Origin: Scatophagus argus
Lineage: Eukaryota > Chordata > Actinopteri > Scatophagidae
DNA: 64,000 nucleotides
NCBI RefSeq assembly: GCF_020382885.2
Contig: NC_058515.1
Span: forward strand, 9,097,223 to 9,161,222
Reading direction: 5' to 3'
Below, one piece after another: positions 19,878 through 64,000 of this stretch. The first letter of the stretch is position 1; every line of letters begins with the position of its first letter. The notes under the pieces were generated by a model, which was not told the DNA's origin, made no database searches, and saw nothing but the letters and a program-made list of their open reading frames with translations. The translations under genes were made by a program, and so were the position numbers.

Positions 19878-22800
19878 ATGGGTGTTGGATGGATCATAAT
19901 TTTCCTAATTCTAATAGGTAAGCTGAGTGATATTGTTTTTAGAGTGTCTTCATGGAACAAGTGTACGATATGACAAATATATATGATATGACAAAAATTT
20001 GAAAAGAGTATTTCCTAAAGATATGCCATAATGACTTTTCAACAACATCTGTTCCAACAACAACAGCTGCAGAAACAACAACAACAACTGCAGACACAAC
20101 AACACCAGCACCCTCAATGACAGCTACAGAAACATCTGATCCAACAACAACAGCTGCAGAAACAACCCTTGTTCCAACAACAACAGCCGCAGGAGCAGCA
20201 ACACCTTCTGGAACAACTACAGCTGCAGAAACAACAACAAATGCTCTGACATCAACAGCCACAGAAACACCTGCTCCAACAACAATGGCAGAGACACCAA
20301 CGCCTTCTGTAACAACAGCTGCAGAAACAACAACATCTGTTCTAACAACACTAGCAGAAACAACAACACCTGCTTCAACAACAACAACAGAAACACCAAC
20401 ACCTTCTGTAACAACACTGGCAGAAACAACAACAACATCTGTACCAACAACTACAGCCACAGAAACAACAACATCTGTTCCAACAACTACAGCTGCAGAA
20501 ACAACAACACCTGTTCCAACAACAACAGCTGCAGAAACAACAATAACATCTGTTCCAACAACAACAGCCGCAGAAACAACAACACCTGTTCCAACAACAA
20601 CAGCCGCAGAAACAACAACACCTATTCCAACAACAACAGCTGCAGAAACAACAACACCTGTTCCAACAACAACAGCTGCAGAAACAACAATAACATCTGT
20701 TCCAACAACAACAGCTGCAGAAACAACAACATCTGTTCCAACAACTACAGCCACAGAAACAACAACACCTGTTCCAACAACAACAACTGCAGAAACAACA
20801 ATAACATCTGTTCCAACAACTACAGCAGCAGAAACAACAACACCTGTTCCAACAACTACAGCTGCAGAAACAACAACACCTGTTCCAACAACAACAACTG
20901 CAGAAACAACAATAACATCTGTTCCAACAACTACAGCTGCAGAAACAACAACACCTGTTCCAACAACTACAGCTGCCGAAACAACAACACCTGTTCCAAC
21001 AACAACAACTGCAGAAACAACAATAACATCTGTTCCAACAACTACAGCTGCAGAAACAACAACACCTGTTCCAACAACTACAGCTGCAGAAACAACAACA
21101 TCTGTTCCAACAACAACAACTGCAGAAACAACAGTAACATCTGTTCCAACAACAACAGCTGCCGAAACAACAACACCTGTTCCAACAACTACAGCCACAG
21201 AAACAACAACACCTGTTCCAACAACAACAGCTGCAGAAACAACAATAACATCTGTTCCAACAACTACAGCCACAGAAACAACAACACCTGTTCCAACAAC
21301 TACAGCCGCAGAAATAACACCTGTTCCAACAACAACAGCTGCAGAAATAACAACATCTGTTCCAACAACTACAGCTGCAGAAACAACAACACCTGTTCCA
21401 ACAACAACAGCTGCCGAAACAACAACACCTGTTCCAACAACTACAGCCACAGAAACAACAACACCTGTTCCAACAACAACAGCTGCAGAAACAACAATAA
21501 CATCTGTTCCAACAACTACAGCCACAGAAACAACAACACCTGTTCCAACAACTACAGCCGCAGAAACAACAACACCTGTTCCAACAACAACAGCTGCCGA
21601 AACAACAACACCTGTTCCAACAACTACAGCCACAGAAACAACAACACCTGTTCCAACAACAACAGCTGCAGAAACAACAATAACATCTGTTCCAACAACT
21701 ACAGCCACAGAAACAACAACACCTGTTCCAACAACTACAGCCGCAGAAACAACAACACCTGTTCCAACAACAACAGCTGCCGAAACAACAACACCTGTTC
21801 CAACAACTACAGCCACAGAAACAACAACACCTGTTCCAACAACAACAGCTGCAGAAACAACAATAACATCTGTTCCAACAACTACAGCCACAGAAACAAC
21901 AACACCTGTTCCAACAACTACAGCCGCAGAAACAACAACATCTGTTCCAACAACAACAGCTGCAGAAACAACAACACCTGTTCCAACAACAACAGCTGCC
22001 GAAACAACAACACCTGTTCCAACAACAACAGCTGCAGAAACAACAATAACATCTGTTCCAACAACTACAGCTGCAGAAACAACACCTGTTCCAACAACAA
22101 CAGCTGCAGAAACAACAATAACATCTGTTCCAACAACAACAGCCGCAGAAACAACAACACCTGTTCCAACAACAACAGCCGCAGAAACAACAACACCTAT
22201 TCCAACAACAACAGCTGCAGAAACAACAACACCTGTTCCAACAACAACAACTGCAGAAACAACAATAACATCTGTTCCAACAACTACAGCTGCAGAAACA
22301 ACAACACCTGTTCCAACAACTACAGCTGCAGAAACAACAACACCTGTTCCAACAACAACAGCTGCAGAAACAACAATAACATCTGTTCCAACAACTACAG
22401 CCACAGAAACAACAACACCTGTTCCAACAACTACAGCCGCAGAAACAACAACACCTGTTCCAACAACAACAGCTGCAGAAACAACAATAACATCTGTTCC
22501 AACAACTACAGCCGCAGAAACAACAACATCTGTTCCAACAACTACAGCTGCAGAAACAACACCTGTTCCAACAACAACAGCTGCAGAAACAACAACATCT
22601 GTTCCAACAACTACAGCCGCAGAAACAACAACACCTGTTCCAACAACAACAGCTGCCGAAACAACAACACCTGTTCCAACAACTACAGCCACAGAAACAA
22701 CAACACCTGTTCCAACAACAACAGCTGCAGAAACAACAATAACATCTGTTCCAACAACTACAGCCACAGAAACAACAACACCTGTTCCAACAACTACAGC

Positions 22801-25800
22801 CGCAGAAACAACACCTGTTCCAACAACAACAGCTGCAGAAACAACAACATCTGTTCCAACAACTACAGCTGCAGAAACAACAACACCTGTTCCAACAACA
22901 ACAGCTGCCGAAACAACAACACCTGTTCCAACAACAACAGCTGCAGAAACAACAATAACATCTGTTCCAACAACTACAGCCACAGAAACAACAACACCTG
23001 TTCCAACAACTACAGCCGCAGAAACAACACCTGTTCCAACAACAACAGCTGCAGAAACAACAACATCTGTTCCAACAACTACAGCTGCAGAAACAACAAC
23101 ACCTGTTCCAACAACAACAGCTGCCGAAACAACAACACCTGTTCCAACAACAACAGCTGCAGAAACAACAATAACATCTGTTCCAACAACTACAGCCGCA
23201 GAAACAACAACACCTGTTCCAACAACAACAGCTGCAGAAACAACAACATCTGTTCCAACAACAACAGCTGCAGAAACAACAACACCTGTTCCAACAACAA
23301 CAGCTGCAGAAACAACAATAACATCTGTTCCAACAACAACAGCTGCAGAAACAACAACATCTGTTCCAACAACTACAGCTGCAGAAACAACAACACCTGT
23401 TCCAACAACAACAGCTGCCGAAACAACAACACCTGTTCCAACAACAACAGCTGCAGAAACAACAATAACATCTGTTCCAACAACTACAGCTGCAGAAACA
23501 ACATCTGTTCCAACAACTACAGCCACAGAAACCACAACATCTGTTCCAACAACTACAGCTGCAGAAACAACAACACCTGTTCCAACAACAACAACTGCAG
23601 AAACAACAATAACATCTGTTCCAACAACTACAGCTGCAGAAACAACAACATCTGTTCCAACAACTACAGCTGCAGAAACAACAACATCTGTTCCAACAAC
23701 TACAGCTGCAGAAACAACAACACCTGTTCCAACAACAACAACTGCAGAAACAACAATAACATCTGTTCCAACAACAACAGCTGCAGAAACAACAACATCT
23801 GTTCCAACAACTACAGCTGCAGAAACAACAACACCTGTTCCAACAACAACAGCTGCCGAAACAACAACACCTGTTCCAACAACAACAGCTGCAGAAACAA
23901 CAATAACATCTGTTCCAACAACAACAGCTGCAGAAACAACATCTGTTCCAACAACTACAGCCACAGAAACCACAACATCTGTTCCAACAACTACAGCTGC
24001 AGAAACAACAACACCTGTTCCAACAACAACAGCTGCAGAAACAACAATAACATCTGTTCCAACAACTACAGCTGCAGAAACAACAACACCTGTTCCAACA
24101 ACTACAGCTGCAGAAACAACAACACCTGTTCCAACAACAACAGCTGCAGAAACAACAATAACATCTGTTCCAACAACTACAGCCACAGAAACAACAACAC
24201 CTGTTCCAACAACTACAGCCGCAGAAACAACAACACCTGTTCCAACAACAACAGCTGCAGAAACAACAATAACATCTGTTCCAACAACAACAGCTGCAGA
24301 AACAACAACACCTGTTCCAACAACAACAGCTGCAGAAACAACAATAACATCTGTTCCAACAACAACAGCTGCAGAAACAACAACATCTGTTCCAACAACT
24401 ACAGCTGCAGAAACAACAACACCTGTTCCAACAACAACAGCTGCCGAAACAACAACACCTGTTCCAACAACAACAGCTGCAGAAACAACAATAACATCTG
24501 TTCCAACAACAACAGCTGCAGAAACAACATCTGTTCCAACAACTACAGCCACAGAAACCACAACATCTGTTCCAACAACTACAGCTGCAGAAACAACAAC
24601 ACCTGTTCCAACAACAACAACTGCAGAAACAACAATAACATCTGTTCCAACAACAACAGCTGCAGAAACAACATCTGTTCCAACAACTACAGCCACAGAA
24701 ACCACAACATCTGTTCCAACAACTACAGCTGCAGAAACAACAACACCTGTTCCAACAACAACAACTGCAGAAACAACAATAACATCTGTTCCAACAACAA
24801 CAGCTGCAGAAACAACAACATCTGTTCCAACAACTACAGCTGCAGAAACAACAACACCTGTTCCAACAACAACAGCTGCCGAAACAACAACACCTGTTCC
24901 AACAACAACAGCTGCAGAAACAACAATAACATCTGTTCCAACAACAACAGCTGCAGAAACAACATCTGTTCCAACAACTACAGCCACAGAAACCACAACA
25001 TCTGTTCCAACAACTACAGCTGCAGAAACAACAACACCTGTTCCAACAACAACAACTGCAGAAACAACAATAACATCTGTTCCAACAACTACAGCTGCAG
25101 AAACAACAACACCTGTTCCAACAACTACAGCTGCAGAAACAACAACACCTGTTCCAACAACAACAGCTGCAGAAACAACAATAACATCTGTTCCAACAAC
25201 TACAGCCACAGAAACAACAACACCTGTTCCAACAACTACAGCCGCAGAAACAACAACACCTGTTCCAACAACTACAGCCGCAGAAACAACAACACCTGTT
25301 CCAACAACAACAGCTGCAGAAACAACAATAACATCTGTTCCAACAACTACAGCTGCAGAAACAACAACACCTGTTCCAACAACAACAGCTGCAGAAACAA
25401 CAATAACATCTGTTCCAACAACTACAGCCGCAGAAACAACAACATCTGTTCCAACAACTACAGCTGCAGAAACAACACCTGTTCCAACAACAACAGCTGC
25501 AGAAACAACAACATCTGTTCCAACAACTACAGCTGCAGAAACAACAACACCTGTTCCAACAACTACAGCTGCCGAAACAACAACACCTGTTCCAACAACA
25601 ACAGCTGCAGAAACAGCAACATCTGTTCCAACAACTACAGCTGCAGAAACAACAACACCTGTTCCAACAACAACAGCTGCAGAAACAACAATAACATCTG
25701 TTCCAACAACAACAGCTGCAGAAACAGCAACATCTGTTCCAACAACTACAGCTGCAGAAACAACAACACCTGTTCCAACAACAACAGCTGCCGAAACAAC

Positions 25801-28800
25801 AACACCTGTTCCAACAACTACAGCTGCAGAAACAACACCTGTTCCAACAACAACAACTGCAGAAACAACAATAACATCTGTTCCAACAACTACAGCTGCA
25901 GAAACAACAACACCTGTTCCAACAACTACAGCTGCAGAAACAACAACACCTGTTCCAACAACTACAGCTGCAGAAACAACAACACCTGTTCCAACAACAA
26001 CAGCTGCAGAAACAACAATAACATCTGTTCCAACAACTACAGCCACAGAAACAACAACACCTGTTCCAACAACTACAGCCGCAGAAACAACAACACCTGT
26101 TCCAACAACTACAGCCGCAGAAACAACAACACCTGTTCCAACAACAACAGCTGCAGAAACAACAATAACATCTGTTCCAACAACTACAGCCGCAGAAACA
26201 ACAACATCTGTTCCAACAACTACAGCTGCAGAAACAACACCTGTTCCAACAACAACAGCTGCAGAAACAACAGCAACATCTGTTCCAACAACAACAGCTG
26301 CAGAAACAACAACATCTGTTCCAACAACAACAGCTGCAGAAACAACAGCAACATCTGTTCCAACTACAGCTGTAGAAACAACAACATCTGTTCCAACAAC
26401 AACAGCCACAGAAACGACAACACCTGCTCCAACAACAACGGCAGAGACAACAACATCTGTTCCAACAACAACAGCTGCAGAAACAACATCTGTTCCAACA
26501 ACAAATGCGGCAACCACACCACTTGCTGTAACAATAACCCCTGCATCAACAACAGTAACACATGTGGCAACAACAACACCTGCTGCAACTGCAGTAACAA
26601 CAACAGCTGTGACAGTAACACCTTCCACAACAACAACTCAGGCAACAACAACACCTGCTGTGACCACACCTACCAATCTTGCAACTGCTGCACCAACAGC
26701 TGTGGCATTCACAACATTAAGGTTGACTTTCAGATCTCTTCGAAACACATTTACAAATGACTTGCGGGATTCATCATCGGCAGCTTTTAGAAATCTAGCT
26801 TCATTGATAAAGACACAGGTAAGTCTCACTTCCTGGAGTAAAATCTACTTCTAGTACAAAGACAGAATTATTTTATAGAAGCTCTAGCCTCTACACAAAT
26901 AATTGAAATGCTATGGTAACACTTAATAATTCACCCAGTGATTTACAGTGTATGGAGTGTAATTGTGCTGTATGAATTAGGTAACACTAAGATACTTACC
27001 TGTTCCTGCTGCTACTTAGCTATAAAGGGAAAAAAGCATGTCAGCACATTGCAATGAAGCCATTAGTTTTTCAGCACATTGATTTTGGACCCTGAGCAGA
27101 TCACACACACACACTGAGACAAAAGTAAACATTCAGAGTCAGCAGGAGAACAATGCAACAGAGTACAATCTGGCAAGTGACTTCAACCAAATTACCAGGT
27201 AGGGTACTGAATAATCTGGTGGAGTGTGGATAAATGAACCGGTCCTGAAGTAGTCTGGCAAAGGGTGGCATTGATGAGGAAAATAAGAAGCAGTTGTGCT
27301 GCAAGACTGGTGAAAGATTCAATCAGTAGACCACACCTAGCTCTGAATGGCATACACAATCAGAGACACATAGAGACAGCAGAAACGGAAAAATGGGGAT
27401 CAAAACATAAGGCAGGGGAAACAAATGAGAACACAAGGAAAACAAAGGGGGAAATGACAGAATAATGGCTGCAGCCTATCGAACCATTAATTATCTACAA
27501 ATGTTTAAAGTGTAGGAGTATTTTAAACAGACACCTAGTGACCCAACAAGGCCCAAAAACATGCCCCACACAGCAAAATATACACATATACATTAAATAC
27601 ATAAATAGGCCACTTACTCAAATTTCCAGAAGAAATAGATTGAGAAGAAAAATTGAGAAATAGATGTAAAAGGTGTTAAACACAAATTGTTTTCTGTTTC
27701 TGTAGCTTGAACCTCAGTTTCAAATGGCATTCCCTTCCTCGTTCAAGTCATTGGACATAGTGTCATTCAGGTAATGTTGGTAGACTCAGTACTTTAACAA
27801 TTTAAGAACAGTGTCCGCATTCTCAAATTTCATAATTTTTTTCAGAAATGGATCGATTATCACCGACATGAACCTCATTTTTGAAAGCACATCTGTGCCT
27901 AATGACACAAATATCACAAGTACATTGATCGATGCAGCATCAAACGTCACCAGCTTCGACGTTGAGAGCAGCTCCATCAATGTAAATGTCATAGGTAAGT
28001 ATACAAAATTGAGCGCTAATGGATCAAAAATTCAAAGACTGTACAACTATTTGTAAAATAAATGTTTTCTCAAAAACAGCAGCAACAACGACACCTATTG
28101 TAACAACAACAGCTGCAGAAACAACATCTGTTCCAACAACTACAGCTGCAGAAACAACAACACCTGCTTCAACAACAACGGCAGCAACACCAACACCTTC
28201 TGTAACAACACTGGCAGAAACAACAGCAACATCTGTTCCAACTACAGCTGCAGAAACAACAACATCTGTTCCAACAACTACAGCCACAGAAACAACAACA
28301 CCTGTTCCAACAACAACAGCTGCAGAAACAACAGCAACACCTGTTCCAACTACAGCTGCAGAAACAACATCTGTTCCAACAACTACAGCTGCAGAAACAA
28401 CAACATCTGTTCCAACAACTACAGCTGCAGAAACAACAACACCTGCTCCAACAACAACGGCAGAGACACCAACACCTTCTGTAACAACACTGGCAGAAAC
28501 AACAACACCTGTTCCAACAACAACAGCTGCAGAAACAACAGGAACATCTGTTCCAACTACAGCTGCAGAAACAACAACATCTGTTCCAACAACTACAGCC
28601 ACAGAAACAACAACACCTGTTCCAACAACAACAGCTGCAGAAACAACAGCAACACCTGTTCCAACTACAGCTGCAGAAACAACATCTGTTCCAACAACAA
28701 CAGCTGCAGAAACAACAACATCTGTTCCAACAACTACAGCTGCAGAAACAACAACACCTGCTCCAACAACAACGGCAGAGACACCAACATCTTCTGTAAC

Positions 28801-31800
28801 AACACTGGCAGCAACAACAACACCTGTTCCAACAACAACAGCTGCAGAAACAACAGCAACATCTGTTCCAACTACAGCTGCAGAAACAACAACATCTGTT
28901 CCAACAACTACAGCCACAGAAACAACAACACCTGTTCCAACAACAACAGCTGCAGAAACAACAGCAACACCTGTTCCAACTACAGCTGCAGAAACAACAT
29001 CTGTTCCAACAACTACAGCTGCAGAAACAACAACATCTGTTCCAACAACTACAGCTGCAGAAACAACAACACCTGCTCCAACAACAACGGCAGAGACACC
29101 AACACCTTCTGTAACAACACTGGCAGAAACAACAACACCTGTTCCAACAGAAGAAACAACAACCCCTGCTGCAACCACATCATCTGCTTCTACAACAACA
29201 GTAGCAGCAACATCAACAGCAGTTGCGGAAACAACAACACCTGTTCCAACAACAACAGCTGCAGAAACAACAACATCTGTTCCAACAACTACAGCTGCAG
29301 AAACAACAACATCTGTTCCAACAACCACAGCTGCAGGAACAACAACACCTGCTCCAACAACAACAGCTGCAGAGACATCAACACCTTCTGTAACAACACT
29401 GGCAGCAACAACAACACCTGCCCCAACAACAACAGCTGCAGAAACAACAGCTATTCCAACAACAACGGCCGCAGGAACAACAACATCTTCTGTAACAACA
29501 CTGGCAGCAACAACAACACCTGCCCCAACAACAACAGCTGCAGTAACAACACTTGTTCCAACAACAACAGCTGCAGAAACAACAACAACTGCTCCAACAA
29601 CAAGTACAGAGACATCAACACCTGTTGTAACAACACTGGCAGCAACAACACCTGTTCCAACAACAACAGCTGCAGAAACAACAACACCTGCTCCAACAAC
29701 AACAGCTGCAGAAACAACACCTGCCCCAACAACAACAGCCGCAGGAACAACAACACCTGCCCCAACAACAACAGCGGCAGAAACAACAGCAACACCTGTT
29801 CCAACTACAGCTGCAGAAACAACATCTGTTCCAACAACAACAGCTGCAGAAACAACAACATCTGTTCCAACAACTACAGTTGCAGAAACAACAACACCTG
29901 CTCCAACAACAACAGCTGCAGAAACAACATCTGTTCCAACAACAACAGCTGCAGAAACAACAGCAACACCTGTTCCAACTACAGCTGCAGAAACAACATC
30001 TGTTCCAACAACAACAGCTGCAGAAACAACAACATCTGTTCCAACAACTACAGTTGCAGAAACAACAACACCTGCTCCAACAACAACAGCTGCAGAAACA
30101 ACATCTGTTCCAACAACAACAGCTGCAGAAACAACAACATCTGTTCCAATAACAACAGCTGCAGAAACAACATCTATTCCAACAACCACAGCTGCAGGAA
30201 CAACAACACCTGCCCCAACAACAACAGCTGCAGGAACAAGAACACCTGTTCCAACAACAGCTGCAGAAACAACAACACCTGTTCCAACAACAACAGCTGG
30301 AGAAACAACACCTGTTCCAACAACAACGGACGCAGCAACAACAACAGCTGCCCCAACAACAACAGCTGCAGAAACAACAGCTATTCCAACAACAACGGCC
30401 GCAGGAACAACAACATCTTCTGTAACAACACTGGCAGAAACAACAACACCTGTTCCAACAACAACAGCTGCAGTAACAACACCTGTTCCAACAACAACAG
30501 CTGCAGAAACAACAACAGCTGCTCCAACAACAAGTACAGAGACATCAACACCTGTTGTAACAACACTGGCAGCAACAACACCTGTTCCAACAACAACAGC
30601 TGCAGAAACAACAACACCTGCTCCAACAACAACAGCTGCAGAAACAACACCTGCCCCAACAACAACAGCCGCAGGAACAACAACACCTGCCCCAATAACA
30701 ACAGCTGCAGTAACAACACCTATTCCAACAACAACAGCTGCAGAAACAACGACACCTGTTCCAACAACAGCTGGAGAAACAACAACACCTGTTCCAACAA
30801 CAACAGCTGCAGAAACAACAGCAACACCTGTTCCAACTACAGCTGCAGAAACAACATCTGTTCCAACAACAACAGCTGCAGAAACAACAACATCTGTACC
30901 AACAACTACAGCCACAGAAACAACAACATCTGCTCCAACAACAACGGCAGAGACACCAACACCTTCTGTAACAACACTGGCAGAAACAACAACACCTGTT
31001 CCAACAGAAGCAACAACAACCCCTGTTGCAACCACATCATCTGCTTCTACAACAACAGTAGCAGCAACATCAACAGCAGCTGTGGAAACAACAACAGCAG
31101 AGACAACAACACCTGTTTCAACAACAGCTGCAGAAACAACAGCAACATCTGTTCCAACAACAACAGCTGCAGAAACGACGACACCTGTTCCAACAACAAC
31201 AGCTGAAGAAACAACAACACCTGCTCCAACAACAACACTGGCAGCACCAACAACACCTGTTCCAACAACAACGGCCGCAGGAACAACACCACCTTCTGTA
31301 ACAACACTGGCAGCAACAACAACAGCTGCAGAAACAACACCTGCCCCAACAACAACAGCTGCAGTAACAACAACAGCTGCTCCAACAACAAATGCAGAGA
31401 CATCAACACCTTCTGTAACAACACTGGCAGCAACAACAACACCTGCTGTGACCACACCTACCAATCTTGCAACTGCTGCACCAACAGCTGTGGCACTAAC
31501 AACATTAAGGGTGACTTTCAGATCTCTTCGAAACACATTTACAAATGACTTGAGGGATTCATCATCGGCAGCTTTTAGAAATCTAGCTTCAGTGATAAAG
31601 ACACAGGTAAGTCTCACTTCCTGGAGTAAAATCTACTGCTAGTACAATGACAGAATTATTTTATAGAAGCTCTAGCCTCTACACAAATAATTGAAATGCT
31701 ATGGTAACACTTAATAATTCACCCAGTGATTTACAGTGTATGGAGTGTAATTGTGCTGTATGAATTAGGTAACACTAAGATACTTACCTGTTCCTGCTGC

Positions 31801-34800
31801 TACTTAAATGTAGGTACAAAGGAAGAAAGCTAGACTATGGCAAGCAATTGTTCGTTATCGAAGAAAAGAGTAATAAATTATCCTCAACACTTACCTTCAT
31901 CTATGCCTATATTACAAATGTACCGCTTACTCAAATTTCCAGAAGAAATAGATGGAAACATTGAGAAACAGATGTAAAAGGTGTTAAATACAAATTGTTT
32001 TCTGTTTCTGCAGCTTGAACCTCAGTTTCAAATGACATTCCCTTCCTTGTTCAAGTCATTGGAAATTGTATCATTCAGGTAATGTTTGAAGACTCCTTCA
32101 TTTTTTTAACTGTTTAATAGCAGTGTCCTCACTCTCAGATTTCAAACTGTTTGTTGTTTTTTCTTTGCAGAAACGGATCAGTCATCACTGAAATGAATGT
32201 CACCTTTGAAAGTGCATCTGTGCCAAACGACACACAAATTACAAGTGCGTTGATCAGTGCAGCTTCAAACGTCACCGACTTTGACATTGAAGGAAACTCC
32301 ATTACTGTGAATGTCATAGGTAAGTCAGCAAAACTGAATGCTAATTGGTCAAAATTCAATGACTGTGCAACTTTGTAAAACAAATGTTTTGGCCTAAACA
32401 GCAGCAACAACAACACCTTCTGTAACAATAACAGCAGCAACAACAACACCTGCTCCAACAACAATGGCAGAGACACCAACGTCTTCTGTAACGACAACAG
32501 CTGCAGAAACAACAACATCTGTTCCAATAACAACAGCTGCAGAAACAACATCTATTCCAACAACCACAGCTGCAGGAACAACAACACCTGCTCCAACAAC
32601 AACAGCTGCAGAGACAACAACAGCTGCAGAGACAACAACAGCTGCCCCAACAACAACAGCTGGAGAAACAACACCTGTTCCAACAACAGCTGCAGAAACA
32701 ACAACATCTGTAGAGACATCAACACCTGGTCTAACAACAACATCTGCAGCAACAACAACACCTGCCCCAACAACAACAGCTGCAGAAAGAACAACACCTG
32801 CTCCCACAACAACAGCTGCAGAAACAACACCTATTCCAACAACAACAGCTGCAGAAACAACACCTATTCCAACAACAACAGCTGCAGGAACAACAACATC
32901 TGCAGAGACATCAACACCTGTTCTAACAACAACAACAGCTGCAGGAACAACAACAGCTGCTCCAACAACAACAGCTGCAGAAACAACGACACCTGTTCCA
33001 ACAACAACAGCTGCAGAAACAACATCTATTCCAACAACCACAGCTGCAGGAACAACAACACCTGCTCCAACAACAACAGCTGCAGAGACATCAACACCTT
33101 CTGTAACAACACTGGCAGCAACAACAACACCTGCTCTGACAACAACAGCTGCAGAAACAACATCTATTCCAACAACCACAGCTGCAGAAACAACAACACC
33201 TGCTCCAACAACAACAGCTGCAGAAACAACACCTATTCCAACAACCACAGCTGCAGGAACAACAACAGCTGCTCCAACAACAACAGCTGCAGAAACAACA
33301 TCTATTCCAACAGCTACAGCTGCAGAGACATCAACACCTTCTGTAACAACACTGGCAGCAACAACAACACCTGCTCTGACAACAACAGCTGCAGAAACAA
33401 CATCTGTTCCAACAACTACAGCTGCAGAAACAACAACAACACCTGCTCCAACAACAACAGTTGCAGAGACATCAACACCTTCTGTAACAACACTGGCAGC
33501 AACAACAACAGCTGCCCCAACAACAACAGCTGCGGTAACAACACCTGTTCCAATAACAACAGCGGCAGAAACAACATCTATTCCAACAACCACAGCTGCA
33601 GGAACAACAACACCTGCTCCAACAACAACAGCTGCAGAGACATCAACACCTTCTGTAACAACACTGGCAGCAACAACAACAGCTGCCCCAACAACAACAG
33701 CTGCGGTAACAACACCTGTTCCAACAACAACAGCTGCAGAAACAACAACATCTGCAGAGACATCAACACCTGTTCTAACAACAACAACAGCTGCAGAAAC
33801 AACGACATCTGTTCCAACAACAACAGCTGCAGGAACAACATCTATTCCAACAACCACAGCTGCAGGAACAACAACACCTGCTCCAACAACAACAGCTGCA
33901 GAAACAACACCTATTCCAACAACAACAGCTGCAGGAACAACAACATCTGCAGAGACATCAACACCTGTTCTAACAACAACAGCTGAAGGAACAACAACAT
34001 CTGCAGAAACATCAACACCTGTTCCAACAACAACAGCTGCAGGAACAACATCTATTCCAACAACCACAGCTGCAGAAACAACAACACCTTCTGTAACAAC
34101 ACTGGCAGCAACAACAACACCTGCCCCAACAACAACAGCTGCAGAAACAACACCTATTCCAACAACAACAGCTGCAGGAACAACAACATCTGCAGAGACA
34201 TCAACACCTGTTCTAACAACAACAGCTGCTCCAACAACAACATCTGCAGAGACATCAACACCTGTTCTAACAGCAACAGCTGCAGGAACAACAACAGCTG
34301 CAGAAACAACGACACCTGTTCCAACAACAACAGCTGCAGAAACAACATCTATTCCAACAACCACAGCTGCAGGAACAACAACACCTGCTCCAACAACAAC
34401 AGTTGCAGACACATCAACACCTGTTCCAACAACAACAGCTGCAGAAACAACATCTATTCCAACAACCACAGCTGCAGGAACAACAACACCTGCTCCAACA
34501 ACAACAGTTGCAGAGACAACAACACCTGTTCCAATAACAACAGCTGCAGAAACAACATCTATTCCAACAACCACAGCTGCAGGAACAACAACACCTGCTC
34601 CAACAACAATAGCTGCAGAGACATCAACACCTTCTGTAACAACACTGGCAGCAACAACAACACCTGCCCCAACAACAACAGCTGCAGAAACAACAGCTAT
34701 TCCAACAACAACGGCCGCAGGAACAACAACATCTTCTGTAACAACACTGGCAGCAACAACAACACCTGCTGTGACCACACCTGCCAATCTTGCAACTGCT

Positions 34801-37800
34801 GCACCAACAGCTGTGGCACTAACAACATTAAGGGTGACTTTCAGATCTCTTCAAAACACATTTACAAATGACTTGAGGGATTCATCATCGGCAGCTTTTA
34901 GAAATCTAGCTTCAGTGATAAAGACACAGGTAAGTCTCACTTCCTGGAGTAAAATCTGCTGCTAGTACAATGACAGAACTATTTTATAGAAGCTCTAGCC
35001 TCTACACAAATAATTGAAATGCTATGCTAACGAATTAGGTAACACTAAGATACTTACCTGTTCCTGCTGCTACTTAAATGTAGGTACAAAGGAAGAAAGC
35101 TAGACTATGGCAAGCAATTGTTCGTTATCGAAGAAAAGAGTAATAAATTATCCTCAACACTTACCTTCATCTATGCCTATATTACAAATGTACCACTTAC
35201 TCAAATTTCCAGAAGAAATAGATGGAAACATTGAGAAACAGATGTAAAAGGTGTTAAATACAAATTGTTTTCTGTTTCTGCAGCTTGAACCTCAGTTTCA
35301 AATGACATTCCCTTCCTTGTTCAAGTCATTGGAAATTGTATCATTCAGGTAATGTTTGAAGACTCATTTTTTTTAACTGTTTAATAGCAGTGCCCAGTGT
35401 GATTTCAAACTGTTTATTGTTTTTTCTTTGCAGAAATGGATCAGTCATCACTGAAATGAATGTCACCTTTGAAAGTGCATCTGTGCCAAACGACACACAA
35501 ATTACAAGTGCGTTGATCAGTGCAGCTTCAAACGTCACCGGCTTTGACATTGAAGGAAGCTCCATTACTGTGAATGGCATAGGTAAGTCAGCAAAACTGA
35601 ATGCTAATTGGTCAAAATTCAATGACTGTGCAACTTTGTAAAACAAATGTTTTGGCCTAAACAGCAGCTGCTCTGACAACAACAGCTGCAGAAACAACAA
35701 CATCTGTCCCAATAACAACGGCTGCAGAAACAACAACACCTTCTGTAACAACACTGGCAGCAACAACAACACCTGCCCCAACAACAACAGCTGCAGAAAC
35801 AACACCTATTCCAACAACAACAGCTGCAGGAACAACAACATCTGCAGAGACATCAACACCTGTTCTAACAACAACAGCTGCAGGAACAACAACAGCTGCA
35901 GAAACAACACCTATTCCAACAACCACAGCTGAAGGAACAACAACATCTGCAGAGACATCAACACCTGTTCCAACAACAACAGCTGCAGGAACAACATCTA
36001 TTCCAACAACCACAGCTGCAGGAACAACAACACCTGCTCCAACAACGGCTGCAGAAACAACAACACCTTCTGTAACAACACTGGCAGCAACAACAACAGC
36101 TGCAGAAACAACACCTATTCCAACAACAACAGCTGCAGGAACAACAACATCTGCAGAGACATCAACACCTGTTCCAACAACAACAGCTGCAGGAACAACA
36201 TCTATTCCAACAACCACAGCTGCAGGAACAACAACACCTGCTCCAACAACAACGGCTGCAGAAACAACAACACCTTCTGTAACAACACTGGCAGCAACAA
36301 CAACACCTGCCCCAACAACAACAGCTGCAGAAACAACACCTATTCCAACAACAACAGCTGCAGGAACAACAACATCTGCAGAGACATCAACACCTGTTCT
36401 AACAACAACAGCTGCAGAAACAACAACACCTGCCCCAACAACAACAGCTGCAGAAACAACACCTATTCCAACAACAACAGCTGCAGGAACAACAACATCT
36501 GCAGAGACATCAACACCTGTTCTAACAACAACAGCTGCAGGAACAACAACAGCTGCAGAAACAACGACACCTGTTCCAACAACAACAGCTGCAGAAACAA
36601 CATCTATTCCAACAACCACAGCTGAAGGAACAACAACATCTGCAGAGACATCAACACCTGTTCTAACAACAACAGCTGCAGAAACAACAACACCTGCTCC
36701 AACAACAACAGCTGCAGAAACAACAACACCTGCCCCAACAACAACAGCTGCAGAAACAACACCTATTCCAACAACAACAGCTGCAGGAACAACAACATCT
36801 GCAGAGACAACAACACCTGTTCCAACAACAACAGCTGCAGAAACAACATCTATTCCAACAACCACAGCTGAAGGAACAACAACATCTGCAGAGACATCAA
36901 CATCTGTTCCAACAACAACAGCTGCAGGAACAACATCTATTCCAACAACCACAGCTGCAGGAACAACAACACCTGCTCCAACAACAACGGCTGCAGAAAC
37001 AACAACACCTTCTGTAACAACACTGGCAGCAACAACAACACCTGCCCCAACAACAACAGCTGCAGAAACAACACCTATTCCAACAACAACAGCTGCAGGA
37101 ACAACAACATCTGCAGAGACATCAACACCTGTTCTAACAACAACAGCTGCAGGAACAACAACAGCTGCAGAAACAACGACACCTGTTCCAACAACAACAG
37201 CTGCAGAAACAACATCTATTCCAACAACCACAGCTGCAGAAACAACAACACCTGCCCCAACAACAACAGCTGCAGAAACAACAACACCTGCCCCAACAAC
37301 AACAGCTGCAGAAACAACACCTATTCCAACAACAACAGCTGCAGGAACAACAACATCTGCAGAGACAACAACACCTGTTCCAACAACAACAGCTGCAGAA
37401 ACAACATCTATTCCAACAACCACAGCTGAAGGAACAACAACATCTGCAGAGACATCAACATCTGTTCCAACAACAACAGCTGCAGGAACAACATCTATTC
37501 CAACAACCACAGCTGCAGGAACAACAACACCTGCTCCAACAACAACGGCTGCAGAAACAACAACACCTTCTGTAACAACACTGGCAGCAACAACAACACC
37601 TGCCCCAACAACAACAGCTGCAGAAACAACACCTATTCCAACAACAACAGCTGCAGGAACAACAACATCTGCAGAGACATCAACACCTGTTCCAACAACA
37701 ACAGCTGCAGAAACAACACCTGTTCTAACAACAACAGCTGCAGAAACAACAACACCTGTTCTAACAACAACAGCTGCAGAAACAACAACACCTGTTCCAA

Positions 37801-40800
37801 CAACAACAGCTGCAGAAACAACAACACCTGCCCCAACAACAACAGCTGCAGGAACAACAACAGCTGCAGAAACAACGACACCTGTTCCAACAACAACAGC
37901 TGCAGAAACAACATCTATTCCAACAACCACAGCTGCAGAGACATCAACACCTGTTCTAACAACAACAGCTGCAGAAACAACAACACCTGTTCCAACAACA
38001 ACAGCTGCAGAAACAACAACACCTGCCCCAACAACCACAGCTGAAGGAACAACAACAGCTGCAGAAACAACAACACCTGTTCCAACAACAACAGCTGCAG
38101 AAACAACATCTATTCCAACAACCACAGCTGCAGAGACATCAACACCTGTTCTAACAACAACAGCTGCAGAAACAACAACACCTGTTCCAACAACAACAGC
38201 TGCAGAAACAACAACACCTGTTCCAACAACAACAGCTGCAGAAACAACATCTATTCCAACAACCACAGCTGAAGGAACAACAACATCTGCAGAGACATCA
38301 ACACCTGTTCCAACAACAACAGCTGCAGGAACAACATCTATTCCAACAACCACAGCTGCAGAAACAACAACACCTGCTCCAACAACAACGGCTGCAGAAA
38401 CAACAACACCTTCTGTAACAACACTGGCAGCAACAACAACACCTATTCCAACAACCACAGCTGAAGGAACAACAACATCTGCAGAGACAACAACACCTGC
38501 CCCAACAACAACAGCTGCAGTAACAACACCTGTTCCAACAACAACAGCTGCAGAAACAACAACATCTGCAGAGACATCAACACCTGTTCTAACTACAACA
38601 ACAGCTGCAGGAACAACAACAGCTGCTCCAACAACAACAGCTGCAGAAACAACGACACCTGTTCCAACAACAACAGCTGCAGAAACAACATCTATTCCAG
38701 CAACCACAGCTGCAGGAACAACAACACCTGCCCCAACAACAACAGCTGCAGAAACAACAACACCTGCTCCAACAACAGCTGCAGAAACAACACCTATTCC
38801 AACAACAACAGCTGCAGGAAGAACAACATCTGCAGAGACATCAACACCTGTTCTAACAACAACAACAGCTGCAGGAACAACAACAGCTGCAGGAACAACA
38901 ACAGCTGCTCCAACAACAACAGCTCCAGAAACAACAACACCTGTTCCAACAACAACAGCTGGAGAAACAACATCTGTTCCAACAACCACAGCTGCAGGAA
39001 CAACAACACCTGTTCCAACAACAACAGCTGGAGAAACAACATCTGTTCCAACAACCACAGCTGCAGGAACAACAACACCTGTTTCAACAACAACAGCTGC
39101 AGAGACATCAACACCTTCTGTAACAACACTGACAGCAACAACAACACCTGCTCTGACAACAACAGCTGCAGAAACAACAACATCTGTTCCAATAACAACA
39201 GCTGCAGAAACAACATCTATTCCAACAACAACAGCTGCAGGAACAACAACACCTACTCCAACAACACCAGCTACAGAGACATCAACACCTGTTCTAACAA
39301 CAACAACAGCTGCTCCAACAACCACAGCTGCAGAAACAACAACACCTGCTCCAACAACAACAGCTGCAGAAACAACATCTGTTCCAACAACAACAGCTGC
39401 AGGAACAACAACATCTGCAGAGACATCAACACCTGTTCTAACAACAACAACAGCTGCAGGAACAACAACAGCTGCAGAAACAACGACACCTGTTCCAACA
39501 ACAACAGCTGCAGAGACATCAACATCTTCTGTAACAACACTGGCAGCAACAACAACACCTGCTCTGACAACAACAGCTGCAGGATCAACAACATCTGCAG
39601 AAACAACGACACCTGTTTCAACAACAACAGCTGCAGAAACAACATCTATTCCAACAACCACAGCTGCAGGAACAACAACATCTGCTCCAACAACAACAGT
39701 TGCAGAGACAACAACACCTGTTCCAATAACAACAGCTGCAGAAACAACATCTATTCCAACAACCACAGCTGCAGGAACAACAACACCTGCTCCAACAACA
39801 ATAGCTGCAGAGACATCAACACCTTCTGTAACAACACTGGCAGCAACAACAACACCTGCCCCAACAACAACAGCTGCAGAAACAACAACATCTGTTCCAA
39901 TAACAACAGCTGCAGAAACAACATCTATTCCAACTACCACAGTTGCAGGAACAACAACATCTTCTGTCACAACACTGGCAGCAACAACAACACCTGCTGT
40001 GACCACACCTGCCAATCTTGCAACTGCTGCACCAACAGCTGTGGCACTAACAACATTAAGGGTGACTTTCAGATCTCTTCAAAACACATTTACAAATGAC
40101 TTGAGGGATTCATCATCGGCAGCTTTTAGAAATCTAGCTTCAGTGATAAAGACACAGGTAAGTCTCACTTCCTGGAGTAAAATCTACTGCTAGTACAATG
40201 ACAGAATTATTTTATAGAAGCTCTAGCCTCTACACAAATAATTGAAATGCTATGCTAACGAATTAGGTAACACTAAGATACTTACCTGTTCCTGCTGCTA
40301 CTTAAATGTAGGTACAAAGGAAGAAAGCTAGACTATGGCAAGCAATTGTTCGTTATCGAAGAAAAGAGTAATAAATTATCCTCAACACTTACCTTCATCT
40401 ATGCCTATATTACAAATGTACCACTTACTCAAATTTCCAGAAGAAATAGATGGAAACATTGAGAAACAGATGTAAAAGGTGTTAAATACAAATTGTTTTC
40501 TGTTTCTGCAGCTTGAACCTCAGTTTCAAATGACATTCCCTTCCTTGTTCAAGTCATTGGAAATTGTATCATTCAGGTAATGTTTGAAGACTCATTTTTT
40601 TTAACTGTTTAATAGCAGTGCCCAGTGTGATTTCAAACTGTTTATTGTTTTTTCTTTGCAGAAATGGATCAGTCATCACTGAAATGAATGTCACCTTTGA
40701 AAGTGCATCTGTGCCAAACAACACACAAATTACAAGTGTTTTGACCAGTGCAGCTTCAAACGTCACCGGCTTTGACATTGAAGGAAGCTCCATTACTGTG

Positions 40801-43800
40801 AATGGCATAGGTAAGTCAGCAAAACTGAATGCTAATTGGTCAAAATTCAATGACTGTGCAACTTTGTAAAACAAATGTTTTGGCCTAAACAGCTCTGACA
40901 ACCACAGCTGCAGAAACAACAACATCTGTCCCAATAACAACAGCTGCAGAAACAACATCTATTCCACCAACCACAGCTGCAGGAACAACAACACCTGCTC
41001 CAACAACAACAGCTGCGGAGACATCAACACCTTCTGTAACAACACTGGCTGCAACAACAACAGCTGCCCCAACAACAACAGCTGCAGTAACAACACCTGT
41101 TCCAACAACACCTGCAGAAACAACGACACCTGTTCCAACAACAACAGCTGGAGAAACAACAACACCTTCTGTAGCAGCTGCAGAAACAACAACATCTGTT
41201 CCAACAACATCTGCAGTAACAACAACACTTGCCTCAACAACAACAGCTGCAGGAACAACAACATCTGTTCCAACAACAACAGCTGCAGAAACAACAACAC
41301 CTGCCCCAACAACAACAGTTGCAGTAACAACACCTGTTCTAACAACAACAGCTGCAGGAACAACAACAGCTGCTCCAACAAATGCAGAGACATCAACACC
41401 TTCTGTAACAACACTGGCAGCAACAACAGCTGCAGGAACAACAACACCTGCTCCAACAACAACAGTTGCAGAAACAACACCTATTCTAACAACAACAGCC
41501 ACAGGAACAACAACACCTATTCCAACAACAACAGCTGCAGTGACAACACCTGCTTCAACAACAGCAACAACTGCTGCAACAACAGCACATTCTGTAACAA
41601 CAACAAAAGCAACAACATCAGGTCCTCCTGTAACAACAGCTGCAGCAAAAACACCTTCTCCAACTACAACACCTGTTGCAACAACAAGCACAGTTGTCTC
41701 TGAACCTGTCTATGTCGTATCAGCTGATTTGCCAGAAGAGCCTTTTTCAGAGGACCTCAGTAACCGCAGCAGCAGTCAATTCAAAAACCTTGAAAAACGT
41801 GTTGTCGACACAGTGAGTATTTTTTCTATTCAATTGGATAAACTTTCCTTTGAATGTGTCAAACTGAATGTGTTAATATTCAAAATTATAAAATTTTACA
41901 TTTCATCATTATGTTAATAATTATCTAAAATGAAAATCAATCAAGAATCAGTAAAATTAAAAATTGAATTTGAATTGAATTGAATAAAATGCCAAATTGT
42001 CAATTGTTTTTTTTTAATAAGGGCTTCAATGCTGCTCATGGTTTTTCATTGTCTTTAATGATTTATTTTTACAGTGTACTGTCATATACAGAGCAAGATT
42101 TGGTCGACAGTTTGTCCGCTGTTTTGTGAGAAGCTTCCGGTAAAAACATTTTTTGCAGAATTTTGGTCTTGGTATCTTCCAACGTTGATATTGTCACAGG
42201 TAAATTACATATGACACCTGCCAACAGTATTTGACATTTGTTCTATTTCTATTTTTTGATACAGCCGTGTTGAAGATCCACAAACACGAGTGGATGGGAC
42301 CCGAGCAGATATCGGAGTTGTGTTCAACCAGAGTACCCCTGCTGCAGATCTCCCACAGAATAATGTTGTTATTCAGGCCTTAGTTGAAGCTGTGAATAAT
42401 TCAAACAATAGCTTCAATGTGAGCATAAGTTTGTCTTCAGTCGAAATATTATGTAAGTATACCAAACAATATATTTCAATCTAATCAGTCTTTATAAGTC
42501 TGTGAAACTGGCACCAAATTCAATTTGACATCAAACCAGGATAGAGAAATCCCTTTCGTTTTCTGAAGCAAATTTATTTACATATTATTTTGAAAATGTT
42601 TTAACAGCAAGTCCAGTTACTATGAATGATGTTTCTACAACTGCTGCACCTACTACTGCCACACCTGCAACTACTGCGTCTACAACTGCAGCACCAACAA
42701 CTAGCTCAGCTGCAACTTCTACCCCTACAACTACCACAGCTCCAGCTGCCACAGCTACCACCACCACCACAACAGCACTTACAAGAGTGTCTTTCAGATC
42801 TGTTAAAAGCACATTTACAGTGGACTTACAGTTTTCATCATCTCAGCTTTTTAAAAGTCGGGCTTCAATGATTAGGTCACAGGTAAGTCTCACCCTTAAA
42901 TCTGCTGATACTCCTCCTGACTTATTTCATCAGAGCTCACCCCTCTCTTAACAAAGTGAAATGTCATTTTAACATTTTTTGCAGCAACCCACAATTTGTA
43001 GTGTAATTGTGTTGTATGAATTAGGCAATGATATTTACTGGTTCCTGCCACTACTTAAAGAAGACAGTAAGAAAAAGGGAATAAATAATATTCTATTGTT
43101 TGTTTTGTGGGCGGGATGGTGGTGCAGTGGTTAGCACTGTCGCCTCATAGCAAGAGGGCTCCAGGTTCGAATCCTGGTCTGGGCCCTTCTATGTGGAGTT
43201 TGCATGTTCTCCCTGTGCCTGCGTGGGTTTTCTCCCGGTACTTCCTCCCACAATACCAAAAACATGCTCATTAGGTTTATTGGCTGTTCTACATTGCCCC
43301 TAGGTGTGAGTGTGAGAGTGTGTGGTTGTCTGTCTTTGACTGGCGACCAGTCCAGGGTGAACCCCGCCTCTCGCCCATAGTCAGCTGGGATAGGCTCCAG
43401 CTCCCCCGCGACCCTGATAGATAAGCAGTATAGAAAATGGATGGATGGATGGATTTGCTTAGTTAATATTGCTTACCTTTGGGTGCAGTACTGGGTTACC
43501 TCAGTGGATTTCCGTAGAATATCAACGTTTTTTACACCTTTTCCCCCAAACTTTTGTTTTCCAGTGTAGAATTCCATAAGTAAATAGCGTTAGAAGTAAA
43601 AATTATATAATTTGTTATTCCCTTATTCCCTGTACTTCATTGGTACCAGATTCATGCAATAATATTACATTGTAAATCAAAGACTTTATTGGAAAGTAGC
43701 ACAAATTAAAAGAAAAATTGACAGACACATCCGGGGAAACATATCAGGGAAAACTGATATGGGAAACTACACCTTCATCCCACTGCACAGTTTTTTTCAT

Positions 43801-44364
43801 ATAAACACAGTAGTTTGGTGTTTTAAGGCAAATCTAGAAGTAAGAAGCGTTCCAGTACAATTTGTTTTTGACTCTGCAGATTGAACCAAGGTACCAAATG
43901 ACGTTCCCATCCTTCAGGTTCTTGGAAGTGGTGTCATTCAGGTAACTTGTCAAAATTGATCTTTTTTATCCTTTTTTATAGTGGCCTAAAGTTGATATTT
44001 CAAACAATGTTTTTGGTTTCTTCTTCTCCTGCAGAAATGGATCAGTCATCAACGACTTAAACCTTAGCTTTGAAAGCACATCTGTTCCTAATAACACTCA
44101 GATTGCGAGTGTTTTGATCAGTGCAGCTTCATCTGTCAGCGGCTTCGACATTGAAATCAGCTCCATCAGTGTGAATGGCACAGGTAAGAAGTGCTGAGTG
44201 CTACTTGATCAAAACTTTCAGAGGTTGCACAAATATTTGTGAAACTAATGTTTTCTTTAATTTTCTCCTCATTTACAGTTTCTAGTGGAGTAAGCCACAA
44301 AATCAGTGTCGTCACTGCATCCGCCCTGGCACTGTTGTCATGGTTACTATCAAACCAGCAATAG
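19878..44364 (+). CDS. giant GPI-anchored multi-SEA mucin (gene B)
   Basis: Twenty coding exons: 19878-19917, 20007-26818, 27706-27770, 27846-27994, 28080-31606, 32014-32078, 32171-32319, 32402-34929, 35284-35348, 35434-35582, 35665-40157, 40512-40576, 40662-40810, 40893-41812, 42075-42139, 42265-42452, 42608-42882, 43880-43941, 44035-44183 and 44279-44364. They sum to 20,001 nt, exactly 6,666 codons plus stop, all phases matching. Order: signal peptide (MGVGWIIIFLILI); four cassettes of PTS exon plus SEA-B domain; a PTS stretch; SEA-A; a short PTS; a final SEA-B; and a tail VSSGVSHKISVVTAS...LLSNQQ typical of a GPI signal. The protein should be a long, densely O-glycosylated cell-surface rod. 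Every junction has GT and AG. The only weak one is the acceptor at 20006, which has almost no pyrimidine tract, so the first junction may be wrong or the assembly altered there. No named orthologue was recognised; gene A is its closest visible relative. Confidence 0.78.
20042..26716 (+). repeat. PTS array 1 of gene B (36-nt units)
   Basis: Tandem 36-nt units encode TTTPVPTTTAAE, with 33-nt and 39-nt variants (TTPVPTTTAAE; TTITSVPTTTATE). By length this is roughly 180-190 units. The 39-nt variant marks a higher-order repeat; around 21,496-21,900 it recurs exactly every 183 nt (39 + 4 x 36). The last 250 bases are less regular. The coding strand is almost only A and C, with few T or G. Confidence 0.95.
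26717..27994 (+). other. SEA-B domain 1 of gene B
   Basis: Exonic parts 26717-26818, 27706-27770 and 27846-27994. Encodes LRLTFRSLRNTFTNDLRD, the helix FRNLASLIKTQ, then LEPQFQMAF...DIVSFR, then NGSIITDMNLIFESTSVPND and a closing helix. The NGSII turn matches the SEA cleavage-loop position. Sequons include NDT, NIT and NVT. Confidence 0.78.
27016..27610. mobile_element. insertion-like segment in the intron of cassette 1
   Basis: The other three copies of this intron share about 150 bases here that are replaced in cassette 1 by about 595 unrelated bases, including CACACACACA and GGAAAACAAAGGGGGAAATG. Homology to the other introns resumes at about 27611 (CTTACTCAAATTTCCAGAAG). This is best explained by a mobile-element insertion with local deletion. 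Confidence 0.5.
28082..31504 (+). repeat. PTS array 2 of gene B
   Basis: Irregular 33-39 nt units of the TTTPVPTTTAAE type mixed with TPSVTTLAETT, SASTTTVAAT and TTAAPTTSTET variants. Several internal blocks of a few hundred bases are repeated nearly exactly, for example a cycle of about 340 nt from about 28,200 to 29,150. It is less uniform than array 1. Confidence 0.93.
31505..32319 (+). other. SEA-B domain 2 of gene B
   Basis: Exonic parts 31505-31606, 32014-32078 and 32171-32319. Starts LRVTFRSLRNTFTNDL; third exon starts NGSVITEMNVTFESASVPND. The exon lengths 65 and 149 equal those of the other SEA-B domains in gene B's cassettes. Confidence 0.78.
32404..34827 (+). repeat. PTS array 3 of gene B
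   Basis: Mixed units such as TTSIPTTTAAGTTTPAPTTT, TSAETSTPVLTTT and TPSVTTLAATT. The vocabulary is closer to array 4 than to array 1. Confidence 0.93.
34828..35582 (+). other. SEA-B domain 3 of gene B
   Basis: Exonic parts 34828-34929, 35284-35348 and 35434-35582. Reads LRVTFRSLQNTFTNDL (Q instead of R, shared only with domain 4). Third exon starts NGSVITEMNVTFES and ends SSITVNGI. Confidence 0.78.
35667..40055 (+). repeat. PTS array 4 of gene B
   Basis: About 4.4 kb of mixed 33-39 nt Thr/Pro/Ala/Ser units, dominated by TTPIPTTTAAGTTTSAETS and TTSIPTTTAAG types, with longer blocks duplicated in tandem (compare about 36,900-37,260 with about 37,460-37,700). The frame is open through the whole exon but contains no ATG. 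Confidence 0.93.
40056..40810 (+). other. SEA-B domain 4 of gene B
   Basis: Exonic parts 40056-40157, 40512-40576 and 40662-40810. Almost identical to domain 3 in exons and introns; differences include NNTQITSVLTSAAS for NDTQITSALISAAS. Confidence 0.78.
40895..41707 (+). repeat. PTS array 5 of gene B
   Basis: A short Thr/Ala/Pro-rich domain of about 270 codons with irregular units, becoming non-repetitive towards its end (HSVTTTKATTSGPPVTTAAA). It leads directly into the SEA-A domain in the same exon. Confidence 0.9.
41708..42452 (+). other. SEA-A domain of gene B
   Basis: Exonic parts 41708-41812, 42075-42139 and 42265-42452. Begins VYVVSADLPEEPFSEDL, then CTVIYRARFGRQFVRCF, then RRVEDPQTRVDG and ADIGVVFNQ...ALVEAVNNSNNSF. 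It aligns by eye with the SEA-A of gene A (YRARYGRFF; VGVQFSS; LVEAVSNPNNTF). It has no GS(V/I)(V/I) turn. Confidence 0.72.
42610..42783 (+). repeat. PTS segment 6 of gene B (short linker)
   Basis: About 58 codons rich in Thr/Ala/Pro (TTAAPTTATPATTASTTA type). It matches in position the short Thr linker between the two SEA domains of gene A. Confidence 0.85.
42784..44183 (+). other. SEA-B domain 5 (membrane-proximal) of gene B
   Basis: Exonic parts 42784-42882, 43880-43941 and 44035-44183. Reads RVSFRSVKSTFTVDLQFSSS, IEPRYQMTF...VVSFR, NGSVINDLNLSFESTSVPNN. Its middle exon is 62 nt, as in gene A, not 65 as in the four cassettes. This makes it the direct counterpart of the single SEA-B of gene A. 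The first intron carries a SINE. Confidence 0.78.
43109..43455 (+). mobile_element. tRNA-derived SINE with (GGAT)n tail
   Basis: The head has a B-box-like GGTTCGAATCC (around 43164) and an A-box-like TGGTGCAGTGG. The body contains TGTGGAGTTTGCATGTTCTC and GACTGGCGACCAGTCCAGGG. The end is GGATAGGCTCC...ATAGAAAATGGATGGATGG. This is the structure of an abundant fish SINE with a LINE-like 3' part. It lies in the sense direction in a gene B intron. Confidence 0.85.
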
Positions 44365-46480: not shown

Positions 46481-49036
<2,556 letters not shown>

Positions 49037-50985: not shown

Positions 50986-51042
50986 AATAACATTGTTGTT
51001 AAGTTAATTACACAGTCTCCCAGGTCTTTTAAAAGTCCGTCA

Positions 51043-63881: not shown

Positions 63882-64000
63882 CTGAGGGGCACAACATCAA
63901 ACAGGGTCAACAAGGAGCAGTTAAACCAACAATCCAGTTAATGTGAGAAATTGTGATCTGTTGGTTTGGCCTGCACAGAGTAAAGGCTGCAAGGAGTATA

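Follow-up and report, generated by a model that had tools for sequence, protein, structure and literature searches.

A giant mucin gene with six SEA domains and a predicted GPI-type tail in Scatophagus argus

Gene structure and domain layout

The window analysed here is a stretch of 64,000 nucleotides from the fish Scatophagus argus (C23:9097223-9161222 of an assembly of 570.7 Mb in 48 contigs), and it contains a giant gene for a predicted membrane mucin with six SEA domains. Rebuilt exon by exon, the gene model comprises 20 exons on the plus strand, from 19878 to 44364 in the window positions that are used throughout for this locus. Its introns are GT-AG in all 19 cases, the phases are continuous and the sole stop codon is found at the very end, giving 19,941 nt of coding sequence and a product of 6,646 aa. 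The original prediction had described a single frame of 20,001 nt with matching phases at every junction; the phases do match, and the frame is 60 nt shorter here, a difference that would fit a start of exon 2 at 20007 rather than at 20067 in the longer version. Both acceptors are frame-compatible and both are poor. Our preference for 20067 reflects the 'tttgaaaag' context of the upstream AG, and further frame-compatible AGs inside the exon 2 repeat leave the exact exon start uncertain.

The start codon and signal peptide (MGVGWIIIFLILI-) are encoded by exon 1 (19878..19917), with a hydrophobic core of mean 3.86 over 9 residues. From there on, proline-, threonine- and serine-rich (PTS) blocks alternate with SEA domains of two types, SEA-B and SEA-A, each domain being built from the end of a PTS exon, a 65-nt exon (62 nt in B5) and a 149-nt exon (188 nt in SEA-A). 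PTS block 1 (~2,216 aa) and the first part of SEA-B1 share exon 2 (20067..26818, with its uncertain acceptor), and exons 3 (27706..27770, 65 nt) and 4 (27846..27994, 149 nt, RNG-SIIT) complete that domain. PTS block 2 and the start of SEA-B2 lie in exon 5 (28080..31606, 3,527 nt), followed by exons 6 (32014..32078, 65 nt) and 7 (32171..32319, 149 nt, RNG-SVIT). The third unit has PTS block 3 and the start of SEA-B3 in exon 8 (32402..34929, 2,528 nt), then exons 9 (35284..35348, 65 nt) and 10 (35434..35582, 149 nt, RNG-SVIT), and the fourth has PTS block 4 and the start of SEA-B4 in exon 11 (35665..40157, 4,493 nt), then exons 12 (40512..40576, 65 nt) and 13 (40662..40810, 149 nt, RNG-SVIT).

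SEA-A begins at the end of PTS block 5 in exon 14 (40893..41812) and continues through exon 15 (42075..42139, 65 nt), which carries the only two Cys of the whole 6,646-aa protein, and exon 16 (42265..42452, 188 nt), which adds an extra loop and has no Gly-Ser at the cleavage turn. A short PTS block 6 and the start of SEA-B5 follow in exon 17 (42608..42882), completed by exons 18 (43880..43941, 62 nt) and 19 (44035..44183, 149 nt, RNG-SVIN), and exon 20 (44279..44364) encodes a glycosylphosphatidylinositol (GPI)-type tail, VSSGVSHKISVVTASALALLSWLLSNQQ, and the stop. The domain order proposed originally (signal, four PTS/SEA-B units, PTS/SEA-A, PTS/SEA-B, hydrophobic tail) is thus borne out, and its parts were all present: five SEA-B domains, one SEA-A domain, PTS blocks of great length and, with no cytoplasmic tail, a C-terminus that is short and hydrophobic.

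Coding evidence and composition

The PTS exons have several frames free of stops, on the minus strand as well as the plus strand, and we therefore did not use openness alone as coding evidence. Instead, we considered the phase of the repeats. The GTTCCAAC motifs of exon 2 fall in one phase in 164 of 164 cases, at spacings of 33, 36, 39, 69, 72 and 306, and motif spacings in four other PTS exons are divisible by 3 without exception (42/42, 23/23, 46/46 and 4/4). Across 109 aligned 12-aa units of exon 2, minority bases number 73, 1 and 101 at codon positions 1, 2 and 3. These patterns support coding short of proof, since the units are mutual copies and triplet slippage also keeps phase.

Ratios of nonsynonymous to synonymous substitution (dN/dS) were computed for the SEA exons. 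They were 0.28, 0.30 and 0.35 for B1 against B2, B3 and B4, 0.38-0.50 for B5 against B1-B4, and 0.40-0.59 for the SEA-B of a small upstream paralogue (described below) against the other SEA-B domains. The two SEA-A domains gave 0.16 at a saturated dS (>3), and ratios among B2, B3 and B4 (~0.9-1.2) rest on a handful of changes and are uninformative. The possibility that the open frame is a by-product of a stop-poor repeat was set aside on motif phase, codon-position bias and SEA-exon dN/dS.

Ser and Thr make up 3276 of the 6646 residues, about half. The six PTS blocks, 57 to ~2,216 aa long, contain 50-54% Ser plus Thr and 11-13% Pro. N-glycosylation sequons number 25, all but one of which (24/25) lie within the twelve short SEA exons. 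A mucin has been defined by PTS together with SEA or VWD domains (PMC1552070), and the giant gene product combines PTS blocks, recognised by composition, with SEA domains in six of six units.

SEA domains and the putative cleavage site

All six units match the Pfam SEA family above its cut-off of 26.4 bits (B1 40.2, B2 43.3, B3 44.8, B4 44.9, A 41.4 and B5 28.9), so the profile search, which had been proposed as a way to refute the SEA assignment, upheld it. In the alignment, Gly-Ser occupies the cleavage turn, which lies between strands 2 and 3 of the fold, in five of five SEA-B domains, as part of an FRNG-S turn at residues 2288, 3535, 4449, 6018 and 6571, and is absent from SEA-A. The paralogue repeats this division: its SEA-B keeps Gly-Ser (SNG-S) and its SEA-A does not, so that none of the two SEA-A domains has it. 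By sequence profile, the nearest solved relative is the SEA domain of ADGRF1 (E 2.1e-8), which has the same FRNGS; the deposited chain 8hc0_B (57 residues) has FRNG as its last residues, the end expected of a cleaved fragment.

Cleavage sites in SEA domains have been written as G-S[V/I]VV (PMC10687090). For ADGRF1 and ADGRF5, GSVVV or GSIVA is described as leading to autoproteolysis, with the cleaved halves remaining associated until force separates them (PMC6954182). On sequence grounds, the SEA-B domains of the giant mucin are likely to self-cleave at Gly-Ser. We go no further than likely, since T or N stands in the fifth place, never the canonical V, and since a related site in MUC16 is reported as uncleaved.

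C-terminal tail

In 19-residue Kyte-Doolittle windows of the giant, none exceeded 1.6 outside the signal, and no strongly hydrophobic segment was found between the two ends of the protein. Only 4 residues separate the C-terminal hydrophobic stretch from the stop, so a membrane span followed by a cytoplasmic tail was not found. Nor does any K or R follow this stretch in the giant, the paralogue, a second multi-SEA gene on C2 or a relic copy (the last three described below). A GPI signal consists of a small-residue site near the C-terminus, a spacer and a hydrophobic end without stop-transfer charge. Compared with these rules by eye and by hydropathy only, VSSGVSHKISVVTASALALLSWLLSNQQ fits, and it is predicted to be a GPI signal rather than a transmembrane segment with a tail.

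Paralogue, relic and cassette history

Upstream of the giant lies a small paralogue of 8 exons (5331..8880, plus strand), encoding 820 aa arranged as signal, PTS, SEA-A, PTS, SEA-B and a GPI-type tail. Its SEA-B passes the Pfam cut-off at 33.9 bits, its SEA-A falls under it at 19.3 bits, and its signal exon is similar to that of the giant. Its PTS region includes a 72-bp coding tandem repeat at 5617-6169 (7.7 copies, 98% matches), which differs from the 36-bp unit of the giant. Between the two genes, a relic of a third copy (15247..15570, plus strand) aligns at 77.0% over 343 columns to 44195-44536, covering intron 19, exon 20 and 3' flank. We also considered whether giant and paralogue have a non-coding first exon in common; the only match was one of 25 nt (84%, E 0.005), which we leave as a hint.

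Every cassette of the giant is symmetric in phase 1-1; with phase 1 at both borders, its duplication or skipping would keep the frame. Between B3 and B4, a stretch of 883 bp including introns shows 99.3% identity. B2 is ~92% identical to them with gaps counted, mainly because its first intron differs in length by 53 bases; its SEA codons match at 97-98%, its first and third introns at 99-100% where aligned and its second intron at 91.8%. B1 resembles the other cassettes at ~80% over later exons and introns and at 95-98% at the 5' end, a high local identity that suggests conversion. Overall, B1 and B5 differ from the others at 47-84% identity in introns and 74-87% nucleotide identity in SEA codons. 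Judged from these identities, cassette duplication in the giant is recent.

We built a tree from 13 SEA domains, these included and no mammalian mucin SEA among them; five of its ten inner branches are weak. B5 groups with the SEA-B of the paralogue (95/98), and the two SEA-A domains pair (100/99). The outgroup joins by a long branch (1.2 changes per column), and because it is so distant the tree leaves the direction of change, giant or small gene first, unsettled.

One gene or several

We asked whether the array might comprise a separate gene per cassette. With the plus strand searched, PTS masked and E up to 1e-4, terminal-exon matches in the window occurred only near 8.79, 15.34 and 44.28 kb. 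The start ATGGGT[GA], common to both mucin genes of the window, is absent from 20001-44000; this is a narrow test, and the two known signal exons are not matched to each other by the same window comparison. Separate genes are disfavoured, with no terminal-exon match between cassettes and no shared start there, and we predict that all 20 exons belong to a single transcript.

A second multi-SEA mucin in the assembly

The assembly was searched with four single SEA exons (E up to 10). This SEA subfamily appeared only at the window locus and on C2 near 16.75 Mb, at a limited sensitivity: a C2 query recovered four of the five C2 domains. The C2 gene (~16745923-16755047) is a second multi-SEA mucin with five PTS/SEA cassettes, for which the model is partial, the PTS exons being partly resolved. 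All five of its SEA units exceed the Pfam cut-off (44.5-58.5 bits), all five have Gly-Ser, and their exons measure 65 and 149 nt (146 in the last). The gene ends in STSTSDSPPRTTVASLAFFTLILLAVAQILIDLSAP, a GPI-type tail. Its PTS blocks are short compared with those of the giant, its repeats are different and its SEA domains are 31-36% identical to SEA-B3. The first two C2 cassettes are near copies of each other. A Pfam family search of the assembly recovered neither mucin gene; its sole matches were two single SEA exons, on C18 and C5, above the Pfam cut-off.

Neighbouring features

Intron 17 of the giant contains an insert (43110-43450) with a tRNA-like head (ggtggtgcagtggttagcactg...ggttcgaatcc), which resembles a short interspersed element. 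The 3' flank of the gene holds a tandem pair of ~314 bp each, 94.7% identical (44606-45234). Beyond it lie a CLDND1-like gene, so called by eye (46481-49036, plus strand; no Pfam match at 0.001 for two exons), an aspartoacylase family gene (51040-53060, minus strand; Pfam, two of two exons given) and an oxysterol-binding protein gene (57940-64000, minus strand; Pfam, one of two exons given), a gene content consistent with a vertebrate. At the other end of the window, 1120-1980 comprises an exon that looks by eye like a signal exon (MVIQQLFFILNFISVISAH) and then a partly open Ser/Thr-rich stretch, possibly a further mucin-like gene or remnant.

Comparison with known systems

According to a 2006 paper (PMC1552070), no mucin except MUC16 was then known to have several SEA domains; the SEA repeats of MUC16 number 19 in a revised model (PMC10829539) and ~56 in an older one (PMC4456727). 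Like the giant, MUC16 joins many SEA domains by P/S/T-rich stretches. Unlike the giant, it is described with a transmembrane segment, a 32-residue tail and repeats of ~156 aa (PMC4456727). Its repeats have two Cys each (PMC10829539), whereas the SEA-B domains of the giant are without Cys and both Cys lie in SEA-A. The giant further differs in its PTS blocks of ~57-2,216 aa between SEA domains, in having Gly-Ser in all SEA-B domains and in lacking a cytoplasmic tail.

IMPG1 and IMPG2 are densely glycosylated and have two SEA domains, SEA-1 without and SEA-2 with a cleavage motif (PMC9478142), a pattern that resembles SEA-A and SEA-B of the small paralogue. In contrast to the giant, IMPG1 is given as secreted and IMPG2 as transmembrane, with two SEA domains only (PMC9478142). 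Mucins of the MUC1/MUC13/MUC17 type share with the giant a PTS region followed by a SEA domain near the membrane, but are described with one SEA domain, a transmembrane segment and a cytoplasmic tail (PMC4456727, PMC9080433). ADGRF1 (GPR110) has the FRNGS of the giant in its SEA domain, but is an adhesion G protein-coupled receptor and not a mucin. Among fish membrane mucins, I-Muc (imuc) of gilthead sea bream is an incomplete sequence with a SEA domain and a long upstream PTS region; it is reported to have no clear mammalian orthologue and to differ in having a transmembrane domain, a cytoplasmic tail and, in a later description, an EGF domain, with tails of 26-52 aa in the three membrane mucins studied together (PMC3680472, PMC11035888). 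Titles and abstract openings among the matches listed named no GPI-anchored multi-SEA mucin. In annotated fish genomes, such a gene may already carry an automatic name.

Interpretation and alternatives

We consider the observation itself, a predicted multi-SEA membrane mucin without a cytoplasmic tail, to be real. Its probable identity is a GPI-anchored fish mucin of ~6,650 residues, with O-glycosylated PTS blocks, self-cleaving SEA-B joints and cassettes duplicated in phase 1-1. The signal peptide would export the protein, and a GPI anchor added near VSSG would hold the chain at the outer cell surface. The Thr-rich blocks would carry dense O-glycans and stretch out as a glycocalyx. Each SEA-B may self-cleave at Gly-Ser during folding, its halves staying together non-covalently, and the chain would then consist of PTS segments linked by up to five breakable joints, with SEA-A as a spacer that does not cleave. 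Shear would open the weakest joint, releasing distal pieces and leaving an anchored stump. Cassette number could be altered by in-frame duplication of the PTS/SEA-B unit. The simplest story of growth is the addition of four cassettes to a small two-SEA gene like the neighbour, a direction that the tree does not show.

The Gly-Ser positions split the giant into segments of 2288, 1247, 914, 1569, 553 and 75 residues (the end segments including signal and anchor signal). We tentatively propose, as a doubtful extension, a serial breakaway mucin in which five joints shed the chain in graded steps and cassette gain or skipping adjusts their number. If so, serial joints would mean stepwise shedding under shear, not shedding all at once at the membrane.

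Several observations weigh against the favoured GPI-anchored, self-cleaving mucin. The cleavage motif is given as GSxxV, with x being V or I (PMC9478142), and no giant SEA-B fits it (GSIIT, GSVIT three times and GSVIN; fifth residues T/T/T/T/N); the paralogue SEA-B (GSIIN) is likewise outside it, and the five C2 domains comprise two strict fits (GSVVV), two GSVVA and one GSVRV. The N of NGS in SEA-B forms an N-glycosylation sequon, as it does in ADGRF1. For MUC16, a DSVLV site is present, yet the last two SEA domains are reported with no cleavage seen (PMC4456727). The hydrophobicity of the tail is only moderate and its last residues, SNQQ, are polar; the length of the array depends on the assembly of near-identical repeats, and the single transcript is a prediction. 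In the tree, it is B1, not B5 or the paralogue, that is set nearest the other SEA domains (97/97), and an origin of B1-B4 as one group from a B5-like domain was tried and not recovered, nor was it rejected (p-AU 0.227).

It is quite possible, if somewhat short of an even prospect, that the same mucin leaves its SEA-B domains uncleaved, as folded, N-glycosylated spacers in one covalent rod. The missing GSxxV in five of five SEA-B domains, the uncleaved MUC16 domains and the concentration of sequons in the short SEA exons all favour such a rod; Gly-Ser is nevertheless kept in every SEA-B while adjacent residues vary, and GSIVA of the ADGRF1 type is reported cleaved with a non-V fifth residue (PMC6954182). 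We regard as unlikely an anchor in the form of a short transmembrane helix, with four residues on the cytoplasmic side, instead of GPI. The polar SNQQ/SSQQ after the hydrophobic stretch would suit a helix of this kind, but the hydropathy windows stay at or below 1.6 except in the signal, stop-transfer K or R residues are missing here as in the C2 gene, and the upstream small-residue run VSSG fits an omega site.

The number of cassettes is a separate matter. Close to an even prospect is that it varies by splicing or copy number, the six-SEA protein being one of several forms: each cassette could be skipped in frame, and B3 and B4 are nearly identical through their introns. That one cassette was multiplied by assembly error seems very improbable. 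The near-identity of B3 and B4, and that of B2 to both in SEA codons and in the first and third introns, would be expected of such an error; against it stand the clear distinctness of B1 and B5, the first-intron length difference and diverged second intron of B2, and the unequal lengths of PTS exons 5, 8 and 11. The pair most in doubt is B3/B4.

Significance

The usual description of a membrane mucin has a single SEA domain next to the membrane and a cytoplasmic tail, with MUC16 as the multi-SEA case. If two genes of one fish pair an end of GPI type, lacking a tail, with many SEA domains that keep Gly-Ser, the two features would come apart. The plan of the giant is common to its small neighbour and to the C2 gene, both of which lay outside the original prediction. 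Such genes could escape inventories of fish mucins that search for a transmembrane segment. For comparison, the same locus provides the two-SEA neighbour, and the giant would offer a natural system for testing the mechanics of several SEA joints in series.

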